Positions 10,577 to 63,348 of a stretch of DNA of 64,000 bases are shown one piece after another (the stretch's first letter is position 1; each line of letters begins with the position of its first letter). Position numbers and translations under genes: made by a program. Under the pieces are notes generated by a model. That model saw only the letters and a program-made list of their open reading frames with translations, did not search any database and was not told the DNA's origin. The stretch is from Paraeggerthella hongkongensis. GTDB lineage: Bacteria; Actinomycetota; Coriobacteriia; Coriobacteriales; Eggerthellaceae. The stretch spans positions 1 through 64,000 of the forward strand of contig NZ_PPTQ01000008.1 of NCBI RefSeq assembly GCF_003340345.1. Direction: 5' to 3'.

Positions 10577-10667
10577 CGCCGAGCGCGCAGCAACGACGCG
10601 ACCTGCGGCATTGACATCGCCGCAGGTCGCGAACCACCGGCTGCGACCTGCAACCGCAGCCGGTGGT

Positions 10668-10775
10668 CGCAGGTCGCGCTCGCGGGTCGCAGCCCGCAGG
10701 TCGCGCTCGCGGGTCGCAGCCCGCAGGTCGCGCTCGCGGGTCGCAGCCCGCAGGTCGCGCTCGCGGGTCGCAGCC
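10668..10775. repeat. 27-bp tandem repeat, four exact units
   Basis: Four perfect head-to-tail copies of a 27-bp unit starting CGCAGGTCGCGCTCGCGGG run from 10668 to 10775. The preceding 70 bases contain degenerate and inverted versions of the same GGTCGC words (for example GCGACCTGCGGC). The array lies between the OPT stop and the first 56-bp palindrome. Exact identity suggests recent expansion. There are no spacers, so it is not a CRISPR array. Confidence 0.9.
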
Positions 10776-10778
10776 CGC

Positions 10779-10834
10779 ATTGTCGCCCGAAACGTACGGT
10801 TTTCTCGCCGAAACCGTACGTTTCGGGCGACAAT
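10779..10834 (+). repeat. 56-bp palindrome, left copy
   Basis: Arms ATTGTCGCCCGAAACGTACG and their complement enclose a short asymmetric loop (TTTTCTCGCCGAAA region). The whole 56-base string is the exact reverse complement of the copy at 12005-12060. The two copies bracket the nuclease-like gene at 10929-11996. It may also act as a transcription terminator for the OPT gene. Confidence 0.9.
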
Positions 10835-10928
10835 GTTCGTCTTGCGAACCGAATGTCCGCCGTCCGCCCGCGCGGATTCTGTGAGATGATAGGTCAAGGT
10901 CTCATAGGGCGAATGGTGGTGAGATGCG

Positions 10929-11996
10929 ATGAAAGCCAATGATGCGGAACTTGCCGGGCTGCTCTTGCAAGCCGAGCGTGCGGGAAAATGCCTGGTTCCC
11001 TCTTGCGATCGCGTTCGGGCGATCTTGCGGAGGCGCGCAGAATGCGGCGCGGTCGTTCGTCCGATGCGAGGCGTGTATGCAAGCTCAGCGTGCTGGAATG
11101 GGCTTTCAAGGTTCGATCAGGCGCTCTACGTGCTTCGCACCGTGCAGGAGCTGCATCCGGATTGGGTTTTTTGCCACGAATCGGCTGCCGTTGCATTCGG
11201 CCTGTCCGTTTCGTACAGCAGCCTGGACGTGGTTCACGTTGCAACGTCCCGGTCGAGGCGCAACGTCAGCTCGACGAACGTTCGATGGCATGTGATTTCG
11301 GGCGACGAGCCCGTGGTCGTTCGCGGGCTTCGGGTAACGTCGCTTTCACGGACCGTTTTCGACTGCATGCGCACTTCCGGCTTCGAGCAAGCGCTTGCCG
11401 TTGCCGATAGCGCGCTGCGCGTGAGCGGAAAACCATCGAGCTGGTTCGTTTCCCGCTTCAAGCGCTTGGGAAGCGGCCATGCGCATGTTGCCGATGCCGT
11501 TCGCACGATGTACCACGCCGACCCTTTGAGCGAAAGCGGGGGCGAATCCATTGCGCGCGCCGTGATGATCAGGCAGGGCTTCGCGCTTCCCGAGCTTCAG
11601 GTCGCTCTGCCGCAGCCCTTGCATGCGGGACGGTTCTATCGCGTCGATTTCCTTTGGACTCGCCTGGATGGAGGCAGGGTCCTCGGAGAGTTCGATGGGA
11701 TGCAGAAATACGAGGACGCGGAGTTGCTCGGCGGCCGGTCTTCGTTGCGGGCGCTTGCCGATGAGCGTCATAGAGAAGCCCAGATTACGCTGTACGGCAT
11801 GCCTATCGTCCGATTTTCGTACAAGGACGTGATGGACCAGGCACTTTTCGTGAAACTGCTCGAAAGGTACGGGATTCCTCGCAGCACCGAAACCGCTCTT
11901 GCCGAGCGGAAGCTCGAACGCTCTCGCTCGGATTCGGCGCAGGTTTTCACGGTGCGCAGCTTCGAGGACGGCCCTTTCGAGCCTTTTGGCGCCTAG
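10929..11996 (+). CDS. AbiEi-like winged-helix / DUF559-like nuclease protein
   Basis: A 355-residue protein with two recognisable parts. Residues about 15-75 resemble the winged-helix domain of AbiEi-type antitoxins (CGAVVRPMRGVYASS). Residues about 195-310 resemble the DUF559/Vsr-like PD-(D/E)XK nuclease fold: ESGGESIARAVMIRQG, RVDFLWTRLDGG, GEFDGMQKYED, then RHREAQITLYGMPIVRFSYKD. Such proteins are common as orphans in Actinobacteria and have no proven function. No toxin partner is adjacent. The ribosome site is weak (GGTGGTGAG), suggesting low expression. The gene sits between two mirror-image 56-bp palindromes, which hints at transfer as a unit. Confidence 0.6.
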   Translation: MKANDAELAGLLLQAERAGKCLVPSCDRVRAILRRRAECGAVVRPMRGVYASSACWNGLSRFDQALYVLRTVQELHPDWVFCHESAAVAFGLSVSYSSLDVVHVATSRSRRNVSSTNVRWHVISGDEPVVVRGLRVTSLSRTVFDCMRTSGFEQALAVADSALRVSGKPSSWFVSRFKRLGSGHAHVADAVRTMYHADPLSESGGESIARAVMIRQGFALPELQVALPQPLHAGRFYRVDFLWTRLDGGRVLGEFDGMQKYEDAELLGGRSSLRALADERHREAQITLYGMPIVRFSYKDVMDQALFVKLLERYGIPRSTETALAERKLERSRSDSAQVFTVRSFEDGPFEPFGA

Positions 11997-12004
11997 CTCA
12001 GGAA

Positions 12005-12060
12005 ATTGTCGCCCGAAACGTACGGTTTCGGCGAGAAAACCGTACGTTTCGGGCGACAAT
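12005..12060 (-). repeat. 56-bp palindrome, right copy (inverted)
   Basis: This is base-for-base the reverse complement of 10779-10834, including the asymmetric loop (TTTCGGCGAGAAAA). It starts eight bases after the stop of the nuclease-like gene. Because the arms are self-complementary it can also fold as a hairpin of about 23 bp. Confidence 0.9.
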
Positions 12061-22399: not shown

Positions 22400-22506
22400 T
22401 CGCGAACCCCGCAACCTCACGACCCTTGCGAACCTTGCGCCCCGTTGCGAACCCCGCAACCCCCGTGAACGTCACGAACCCTGCACCCCCGCAAACCTCG
22501 CCCGCG
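22400..22506. other. low-complexity CGAACCCCGCAACC-rich spacer
   Basis: About 100 bases of irregular repeats of words such as CGAACCCCGCAACC and CGAACCTTGCG lead into repeat copy 2. No gene or named signal is seen. It looks like degenerate tandem sequence. Confidence 0.5.
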
Positions 22507-22648
22507 TGTCAAAACGGACGAGTTTTGCGGGGGTTTTTGCGCTTTCGCCCGAAGGTTGTGCGCCGAGGTTTTTTATCGTCCCAGGTCACAGAGTCGACGG
22601 TTGCTTTTATTCTCGTTTGAGGACCAGCAAAACTCGTCCGTTTTGACA
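22507..22648 (+). repeat. 142-bp dispersed element, copy 2
   Basis: Same length, termini and right third (TTTGAGGACCAGCAAAAC) as the other copies, with perfectly complementary 22-bp terminal repeats. The middle about 70 bases is the most diverged of the set. It lies between the ends of the convergent lipid-kinase and terC genes. Confidence 0.9.
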
Positions 22649-36206: not shown

Positions 36207-36418
36207 ATCGGCGAGGAAATATATTACGTGAACTCCCCTAGTCGCGCAAGCCCCAATTTCAACTTTTTTGAAAATTCTTAGAAAACGGCTGGTACATAAG
36301 GCGATCGCGCGAAGGCGCTACGCTCTGAAGCCATCGAGCCGCCGTCTCATCAAAGCTGCCGCCGCCACGCAAGCCACCGAGGACGCTTGCGGACAGCCGC
36401 GCACTCGCCCGGACCTTC

Positions 36419-36560
36419 TGTCAAAACGGACGAGTTTTGCTGGTCCTTAAGCAAGGATAATCACAGGCAGTAAGTCTCTGACCAGGCATGATGAAAAACA
36501 CCTTTCGTCGCATCACTTCGGCAAGGCGGAAAATCGCCGCAAAACTCAACTTTTTTGACA
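36419..36560 (-). repeat. 142-bp dispersed element, copy 3 (inverted)
   Basis: The only copy in the opposite orientation. The right end is intact (GAGTTTTGCTGGTCCTTAAG read on plus), while the left terminus is decayed (TGTCAAAAAAGTTGAGTTTT), so its terminal repeats no longer pair perfectly. The GGCGATTTTCCGCC hairpin is kept. It lies between the tRNA unit and an integrase remnant. Confidence 0.88.
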
Positions 36561-36599
36561 CAAGGCCGGCGCCGGTCGGTTCGTACCGGATGGGCAAGG

Positions 36600-61331: not shown

Positions 61332-61433
61332 ATGTTCCCGTGGTACCCGACGCACGAAGATCGCGCCGCGCCCATCGCGCGCCGACCCCCCATCGCGCAA
61401 TCCGTGCGCACGACGTCGAATCTCGCGCAGTCC

Positions 61434-61575
61434 TGTCAAAACGATCGAGTTTTGCGGCGGTTTTCCGCCTTTTTATGATTGCTCGCCAACACACGATTTT
61501 CATTGTCCCAGTTCAGAAGCTTATCCGCTTGCTTTATCCTGGTTTGAGGACCAGCAAAACTCGTCCGTTTTGACA
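61434..61575 (+). repeat. 142-bp dispersed element, copy 4
   Basis: Same length and ends. The left arm has two changes (CGATCG for CGGACG), shared with copy 5, so the terminal repeats pair imperfectly. Copies 4 and 5 also share CCCAGTTCAGAAGCTTATC in the centre, making them the closest pair. It lies just past the stop of the nuclease-like gene at 61642. Confidence 0.9.
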
Positions 61576-61641: not shown

Positions 61642-62625
61642 TCACAGCACTGCGGCTCTCAGCGTGCGGCACGCTTGCGCGAAACCATCGTACGGACGAA
61701 CCCGCTCGCCTAAAGCAGCAGCAAGCTGACGCGCCGCCTTGTCGAAGCGCGCAGGATCCATGATCTGGTGATTCGTCATCGTGCGCACCGACACCCCCAG
61801 ATGGGACAAGTCATCGCGACGTTCCGAATCCCTTGCGATCCGATAAGGACCGGTATGGTACTCGTCGCTTTCGTACTCAACGTCGAGCTTCGCTTGCGAC
61901 CAGTACAGATCGCATAAGTAGTATCCCTTTTCGATGCAATCTCGCCGCGCGTCCGGCACATCCATTCGATAATTCAATTCGGGATGCGAAAGCGCATAGC
62001 CGCCCATTCTTCGCGGAAGGCAAAGCAGCAACGTCAAAGCCGTCTCGCGCGGCGAAGCGGAACAGGCAACCAAATGCTTGAGGACTCTTCGAGCCGCAGC
62101 CGCGCCAGGAATTCCTCGTGCAGATTCGACGTATCGAGCAAGGGCCGATACCGTGGTCAAAAGCATGGGCCTCCCGTACCGCGTGTGCCCATCGCAGTTG
62201 CGCGCGTACGTTCCGCACAGCTCGAATCCCAAGGCAAGAAGCTCCAACGCAGGCAAGACGGAAGCCATCTGCACGAAGCACAGCTCCGGCGAGCTCGCGT
62301 ACAGATCTTCGCCCAATCGCACGAATGATCCAGGAGGAAACGAGCGCGCATGAACATGGCAGCGCACGCCGACGCGGTCGATCCGATCGCACGTACGGGG
62401 CACGACCACATGCACGGGCGATTCGCGAGAAACGCGCCTGAGCGGCAATCCGCTTTCAAGAAGCAGGGAATCCCCGCGAGCGCGATCGACATCTACGGCC
62501 TTGCGGCCCTGGAAAAACGCCGCGGTATCGGCATCGCGGCTGCGAGCCCGCGCCGCCTTGTCCGCATCGCCGATAAACTCCGACGATCCGACGGGATGCC
62601 GAACGCGTTTTCCAGAGCAGGGCAC
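61642..62625 (-). CDS. DUF559/Vsr-like nuclease-domain protein
   Basis: A 327-residue protein from GTG 62625; the start is uncertain and could be further in. The middle part (SFPPGSFVRLGEDLYASSPELCFVQMAS near residue 95) has the winged-helix or AbiEi-like look of related coriobacterial proteins. The C-terminal part resembles a DUF559/Vsr nuclease: DCIEKGYYLCDLYW near 234, KLDVEYESDEYHT near 252 (D..E layout) and RDSERRDDLSHLGVSVRTMTNHQ near 268. No partner gene is next to it. It lies between repeat copies 4 and 5. Confidence 0.6.
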   Translation of the reverse strand: MPCSGKRVRHPVGSSEFIGDADKAARARSRDADTAAFFQGRKAVDVDRARGDSLLLESGLPLRRVSRESPVHVVVPRTCDRIDRVGVRCHVHARSFPPGSFVRLGEDLYASSPELCFVQMASVLPALELLALGFELCGTYARNCDGHTRYGRPMLLTTVSALARYVESARGIPGAAAARRVLKHLVACSASPRETALTLLLCLPRRMGGYALSHPELNYRMDVPDARRDCIEKGYYLCDLYWSQAKLDVEYESDEYHTGPYRIARDSERRDDLSHLGVSVRTMTNHQIMDPARFDKAARQLAAALGERVRPYDGFAQACRTLRAAVL

Positions 62626-63145: not shown

Positions 63146-63206
63146 CGGCGAAACGGACGGCTTGCAGGAACGCGCGCAGTAGCAGGACGCATTTGACACG
63201 GCCCGC

Positions 63207-63348
63207 TGTCAAAACGATCGAGTTTTGCGGCGATTTTCCGCCTTCTCGGGGTTGTTCGCTGATGCGTGGTTTTCGTTATCCCAGTTCAGAAGCTTATCGA
63301 CTTGCTTTATCCTGGTTTGAGGACCAGCAAAACTCGTCCGTTTTGACA
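63207..63348 (+). repeat. 142-bp dispersed element, copy 5
   Basis: Same length, termini and right third as the others; nearest to copy 4, including the CGATCG change in the left arm. It lies between the 18-bp array and the pyrophosphatase gene. Confidence 0.9.

Follow-up and report, generated by a model that had tools for sequence, protein, structure and literature searches.

What keeps a single gene between two long palindromes that are exact mirror images of each other, and do the gene and the palindromes belong together? The question is raised by one locus in the window, the whole stretch of 64,000 nucleotides analyzed here from the Paraeggerthella hongkongensis contig NZ_PPTQ01000008.1. 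Many bacteria carry dispersed palindromic repeats, and RAYTs are, to our knowledge, the only enzymes tied to such repeats.

The unit consists of (i) an upstream palindrome of 56 bp at 10779-10834 with the sequence ATTGTCGCCCGAAACGTACGGTTTTCTCGCCGAAACCGTACGTTTCGGGCGACAAT, (ii) an open reading frame for 355 residues on the plus strand at 10929-11996, and (iii) a downstream palindrome of 56 bp at 12005-12060, the two palindromes being located from the sequence and a repeat search, with no strand assigned. Each palindrome on its own is a hairpin with a perfect 24-bp stem and an 8-nt loop. As an earlier sequence-only reading had stated, the downstream copy is the reverse complement of the upstream one (100% over 56 nt, loop included), and the reading frame is the sole plausible gene between them. 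The distance from the upstream palindrome to the start codon is 94 bp, and the downstream palindrome starts 9 bp past the stop codon. Both are intergenic with strong predicted folding and lack the unpaired tags GTAG and CGTC, and the neighboring genes encode an OPT transporter and a glycosyltransferase. In the comparison genome from the same genus, P. hongkongensis G001 (matched contig NZ_QICD01000003), the pair at the same place has unlike loops (AATGAG and GACGAG) and a common orientation; thus, the exact inverted identity of the two flanking palindromes is a local trait of the window unit. A 27-nt G+C-rich tandem array (10641-10775) adjoins the upstream palindrome, and other short hairpins occupy the matching place in G001.

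The gene product appears to be an AbiEi-like DNA-binding module fused to a predicted PD-(D/E)XK nuclease that resembles Vsr-type homing endonucleases. Structural matches delimit an N-terminal AbiEi-like module composed of a winged helix and an AbiEi C-terminal domain (residues 1-198; 10929-11522, plus strand) and a C-terminal nuclease domain with the signature GEFDGMQKY (residues 202-317; 11532-11879, plus strand). In the AlphaFold model (pLDDT 84), residues 3-198 align with S. agalactiae AbiEi (6y8q) at a Z of 9.4 over 178 residues, and the module also resembles Rv2827c (1zel, Z 6.5). Residues 203-317 match the catalytic domain of the homing endonuclease I-Bth0305I (3r3p, Z 9.4), followed by the lower-ranked NGO0050 (3hrl, Z 8.1) and TnsA (1f1z, Z 6.2). 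Because plain Foldseek returned no significant match for the model, the fold assignment rests on this second structural comparison together with the conserved residues. Across 13 aligned homologs, E206, D240, E254, D256, and K260 are invariant in and around GEFDGMQKY, and the alignment yields a catalytic-type arrangement of E254-x-D256 and K260 with E206 and D240. The predicted domain has both the core fold and the acidic and lysine residues by which members of the PD-(D/E)XK superfamily are recognized.

Profile searches bear out one half of the earlier description of the protein as AbiEi-like and DUF559-like. The AbiEi part agrees with the fold and with PADLOC AbiEi models, which match the window protein at an E value of 6e-10. 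The DUF559 part does not stand at the Pfam gathering cut-off: Pfam and NCBIfam give no match for the window protein itself, and for DUF559 (PF04480) the best relative reaches 15.1 bits against a cut-off of 20.6. Relatives of the window protein have AbiEi_4 Pfam matches and weak DUF559 matches. A RAYT/Y1 transposase as mobilizer is ruled out by its absence from the window genome: Y1_Tnp (PF01797) has no Pfam match in the window protein or its relatives and none in the contigs of that genome, in which controls were detected. Carriage by a phage or plasmid was dropped, given no plasmid match for one relative, no match in viral contigs, and a single weak match for the window protein in a phage search.

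The bracketing of this gene by palindromes recurs well beyond the window. Homologs occur in 16 of the 138 genomes of the same GTDB family, Eggerthellaceae, and in other genera of that family (Gordonibacter An230, Gordonibacter P2775, G056, G021, and others) the gene again lies between long palindromes, at similar distances and with other sequences. The geometry within Eggerthellaceae is fixed: a gap of ~95-105 bp typically separates the upstream palindrome from the start codon, and the downstream palindrome is usually within ~50 bp of the stop codon. Relatives in an Actinomycetales MAG, Agrococcus, Marmoricola, and Nocardioides are bracketed in the same way. A profile search detects members of the protein family in 120 of the 396 Actinomycetota genomes sampled, often in several copies, and ~70 of the loci from this search were examined.

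In a test that compared 400 bp of upstream flank with 330 bp of downstream flank at each gene, a matching flanking repeat is present at 65 of 91 family genes and at 1 of 89 control ORFs of the same regions (p 2.7e-26, which is descriptive because the loci are phylogenetically non-independent). Mismatched flanks, taken from different family loci, have a matching repeat in 1 of 271 pairs. Most of the matching repeats (55 of 65) are self-complementary, and their sequences vary from locus to locus; at 26 of the 91 genes, no flanking repeat is detectable. A strict matched-hairpin criterion gives 21 of 92 family genes and 0 of 90 controls. Of the controls, only 16 have ample intergenic DNA on either side, and the contrast persists with these (p 1e-6, likewise descriptive).

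These statistics contradict the reading of the palindromes as ordinary bidirectional terminators duplicated by chance, since matched flanks are found at 0-1 of 89 control genes. The intergenic position and strong folding would suit such elements, but neither palindrome of the window unit has a T tract or a terminator call; the missing T tract rules the reading out, and it is scarcely credible.

The sole control with matched flanks (L159:8487-9635) is itself an MTES_1575/DUF559-like nuclease gene between matched 67-bp palindromes. Its product is 32% identical to a 327-residue MTES_1575/DUF559-like nuclease encoded by a second unit in the window (61642-62625, minus strand), which in its nuclease domain is distantly related to the 355-residue protein by profile comparison (E 5.6e-5). 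This second gene lies between a 143-nt palindromic repeat at 61433-61575 and a direct copy of it at 63206-63348. The repeat search also places solo copies at 23-165 and 22506-22648, as well as an inverted and partly degenerate one at 36416-36568, all without an assigned strand. The kinship between this second unit and the exceptional control suggests that such an arrangement is not confined to the GEFDGMQKY family.

The palindromes of the first unit are likewise dispersed. The window genome (G000) holds ~20 copies besides the pair of the window unit, or ~22 in the whole genome, while G001 holds ~16. The full hairpin pattern run backwards as a control finds no match in G000, and the pair in the window unit far exceeds chance expectation. 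The outer 20-bp arms are almost invariant among the G000 copies, and the loop is variable. Save for two small local clusters, the copies have no common flanks; the repeated unit is therefore the palindrome alone, and a larger repeated unit is ruled out. Most copies are common to both Paraeggerthella species, so the spread of the palindrome in this genus is not recent. Across 15 orthologous copies in G000 and G001, the outer arms differ at ~1% of positions (hand count) and the flanks at roughly 8%. At variable stem positions both arms covary, more often than shuffled arms do, with compensated positions at 11 and 17 in G000, at 13-16 in G067 and G089, and at several places in G284. G001 additionally contains two near-identical perfect hairpins of ~80 bp, GACGGGGTCAATGACTCATTTTC... 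(L072 1550-1633 and L199 9185-9264), which are a further dispersed palindrome family.

Solo copies spread over intergenic DNA speak against a role in defense or self-marking, in which the nuclease would attack DNA and the palindromes would mark or protect the host chromosome or serve as decoys. AbiEi-type modules are indeed part of anti-phage systems, as the PADLOC match indicates. However, neither a partner toxin nor defense genes adjoin the window unit, where the transporter and the glycosyltransferase are found instead, and a defensive function is very improbable.

A closer tie between dispersed copies and the local gene comes from the inner part of the stem, which was compared in Eggerthellaceae and in one genus of another family. 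Hairpins that fit TGTCGCCCGAAA...TTTCGGGCGACA are present in 10 of the 138 Eggerthellaceae genomes, 6 of which are among the 16 gene carriers (Fisher p 1.5e-4). Their inner stem is CGTACG in both the dispersed and the gene-flanking palindromes of G000 and G001; most copies have CGGTCG in G089 and GCCGCG or GCCTCG in G067, as beside the local gene in each. G056 and G021 have a quite different inner stem, CTTCGCTCCTAAAACACG, with a private continuation in each: dispersed and gene-flanking stems read CTCCTAAAACACGCCACAGC in G056 and ...CCTCAGC in G021. In the genus of the other family (g90), AGCAGACRYRAA hairpins number 43, 27, 21, 12, and 10 in five genomes, with none in 13 genomes of other genera. 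The inner stem found beside the gene recurs among the 43 copies of G284 (AAAGCCCCC) and among the 21 copies of G487 (AAACTCGGGC), the exception being G454, whose dispersed stems are unlike the one gene-flanking stem examined.

Palindromes are also present in four genomes without a close homolog (G054, G070, G085, and G088), which requires either gene loss or another enzyme. Such loss does occur. G000 encodes a second homolog, gene B, with its own palindrome type B; in G001, gene B has been deleted, its start-codon region and a palindrome have been left behind, and at least eight B-type palindromes are still dispersed. The link between palindrome and nuclease gene that the sequence-only reading suspected is strongly supported, genome by genome through the stem matching and across Actinomycetota through the flank test. 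The search for other copies that it proposed finds them, and many family genes are bracketed across the phylum; the palindrome is indeed scattered, yet it is tied to the family, so that the refuting condition set by that reading, wide scatter without a link to such genes, does not hold.

How the palindromes move is best approached from orthologous sites. The site between the glycosyltransferase and OPT genes carries the unit in four species (both Paraeggerthella, G067, and G089), a solo palindrome in G054, one decayed palindrome in G056, and no palindrome in G053, G055, G068, and G070. The comparison of syntenic loci that had been proposed as a check finds unit, solo palindrome, or neither at this site, with the gene inverted in Paraeggerthella. 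As regards homing, the presence of both unit and solo states at the same orthologous place is only circumstantial evidence.

Other sites carry marks of recombination at palindromes, judging from sequence comparison of the two Paraeggerthella species. Segments of 7.8 kb and 10.2 kb that are bounded by palindromes in one species correspond to a single palindrome in the other. The 7.8-kb segment is a DMSO-reductase-like operon (G001 L030 4000-11886) that is absent from G000 L010, where one palindrome stands. At the site of the 10.2-kb segment, one species has a type A palindrome and the other a type B palindrome, their loops being identical, and two copies nearby are A/B hybrids. No target duplication and no clean recent insertion was seen among the copies examined; nor did any lone palindrome prove to be a clean insertion, and the single copy specific to G000 that was examined (C34:51748) lies in a rearranged stretch.

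The strongest rival to a mobile palindrome served by a dedicated enzyme is an ordinary transposon with palindromic ends, in which the whole unit moves and solo palindromes are scars of end-to-end recombination that deleted the gene. It would account for the unit and solo states at one site, and for the units of G056 and G021, whose genes are 75% identical and whose palindromes are about 93% identical at unrelated locations. However, within-genome paralogs of the gene are only 31-62% identical and none is recent, even though palindromes reach 43 copies, no target duplications were seen, and flanking copies across family genes are direct about as often as inverted. A whole-unit transposon is therefore unlikely. 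The same observations, together with the multi-copy state of the palindrome itself, give no support to perfect inverted terminal repeats, which the earlier reading suggested for the window unit, as the general case.

A second rival treats the protein as an autorepressor and the dispersed palindromes as its regulon. AbiEi binds inverted repeats and thereby represses its own promoter, and its operator has two inverted arms of ~23 bp (PMC3985639); one palindrome here lies ~95 bp upstream of the start codon. This leaves unexplained (i) a matching copy directly behind the stop codon, (ii) the invariant acidic and lysine residues of the nuclease domain, and (iii) palindrome-bounded deletions and genome-private stem types. 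A purely regulatory role is accordingly quite unlikely, though less so than defense or termination.

The reading that we favor is that of short mobile palindromes, seemingly selfish, dispersed in the chromosome, with one dedicated protein gene sitting between two of them. The AbiEi-like module would most likely bind the inverted repeat, by analogy with the AbiEi operator, which is of similar size and shape. The PD-(D/E)XK domain would then nick or cut at or near the palindrome, and palindromes that recombine or switch templates with one another during repair could be copied to new sites. The same repair may rewrite arms, flip or delete intervening DNA, and carry the gene along. In its full form, this proposal makes a PD-(D/E)XK nuclease with an AbiEi-type palindrome reader the dedicated mobilizer of REP-like palindromes across Actinomycetota, an enzyme class unrelated to HUH transposases, with arm-by-arm rewriting through recombination giving rise to private palindrome types in each genome; we advance it tentatively, as a distinct possibility that falls somewhat short of probable.

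If true, the family present in 120 of the 396 genomes would be a second, unrelated enzyme family with a REP-like arrangement, many hypothetical genes annotated as AbiEi/DUF559-like would be explained, and palindrome spread would become testable with a small nuclease. The open-licence literature yielded no earlier description of an AbiEi/DUF559-palindrome association, of REP in Actinobacteria, or of the repeat sequence, and the enzyme itself has a fair chance of representing a new class.

Several known systems share parts of this arrangement. AbiE type IV toxin-antitoxin systems share both N-terminal domains at the level of fold (6y8q, Z 9.4), and the ~23-bp inverted arms of the AbiEi operator are about the size and shape of the palindromes described here (PMC3985639). 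In contrast, the window protein has an extra C-terminal nuclease, its repeats occur on both sides of the gene and are dispersed, and no AbiEii nucleotidyltransferase gene is adjacent; because this partner gene is missing, the window unit is not an AbiE toxin-antitoxin. The Vsr-like homing endonuclease I-Bth0305I and DUF559/MTES_1575 proteins share the nuclease fold and the E-D-ExD-K arrangement, but unlike the I-Bth0305I gene, the gene here is free-standing between palindromes and does not reside in an intron. TIRtrons and IS200-IS605 elements similarly place a gene between a matched pair of partly self-complementary repeats (PMC3733652), although their enzyme chemistry differs, and here it is the repeat rather than the gene that is multi-copy.

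The closest likeness is to RAYTs. In a REPtron, palindromic repeats lie on either side of the enzyme gene and recur elsewhere in its genome, each RAYT is paired with its own repeat type, and paralogs within a genome are distinct and single-copy (PMC3116915, PMC3733652). The units described here share the flanking palindromes, their dispersal in the same genome, the pairing of each enzyme with a repeat type of its own, and divergent within-genome paralogs of which none is recent (PMC3116915). A REP is defined by a GTAG or CGTC tag that stays unpaired at one of its ends, and at least one large REP class, the CGTC type, is reported to lack a dedicated enzyme (PMC3733652). The palindromes here are ~55 bp long, have stems of 20-28 bp, and are without such a tag, and where RAYTs are HUH Y1 transposases, the protein is AbiEi-like with a PD-(D/E)XK domain. 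Without the HUH enzyme and the GTAG/CGTC tags, the unit is REPtron-like but not a RAYT, and palindrome and nuclease together probably represent a REP/RAYT-like arrangement built on a different enzyme.
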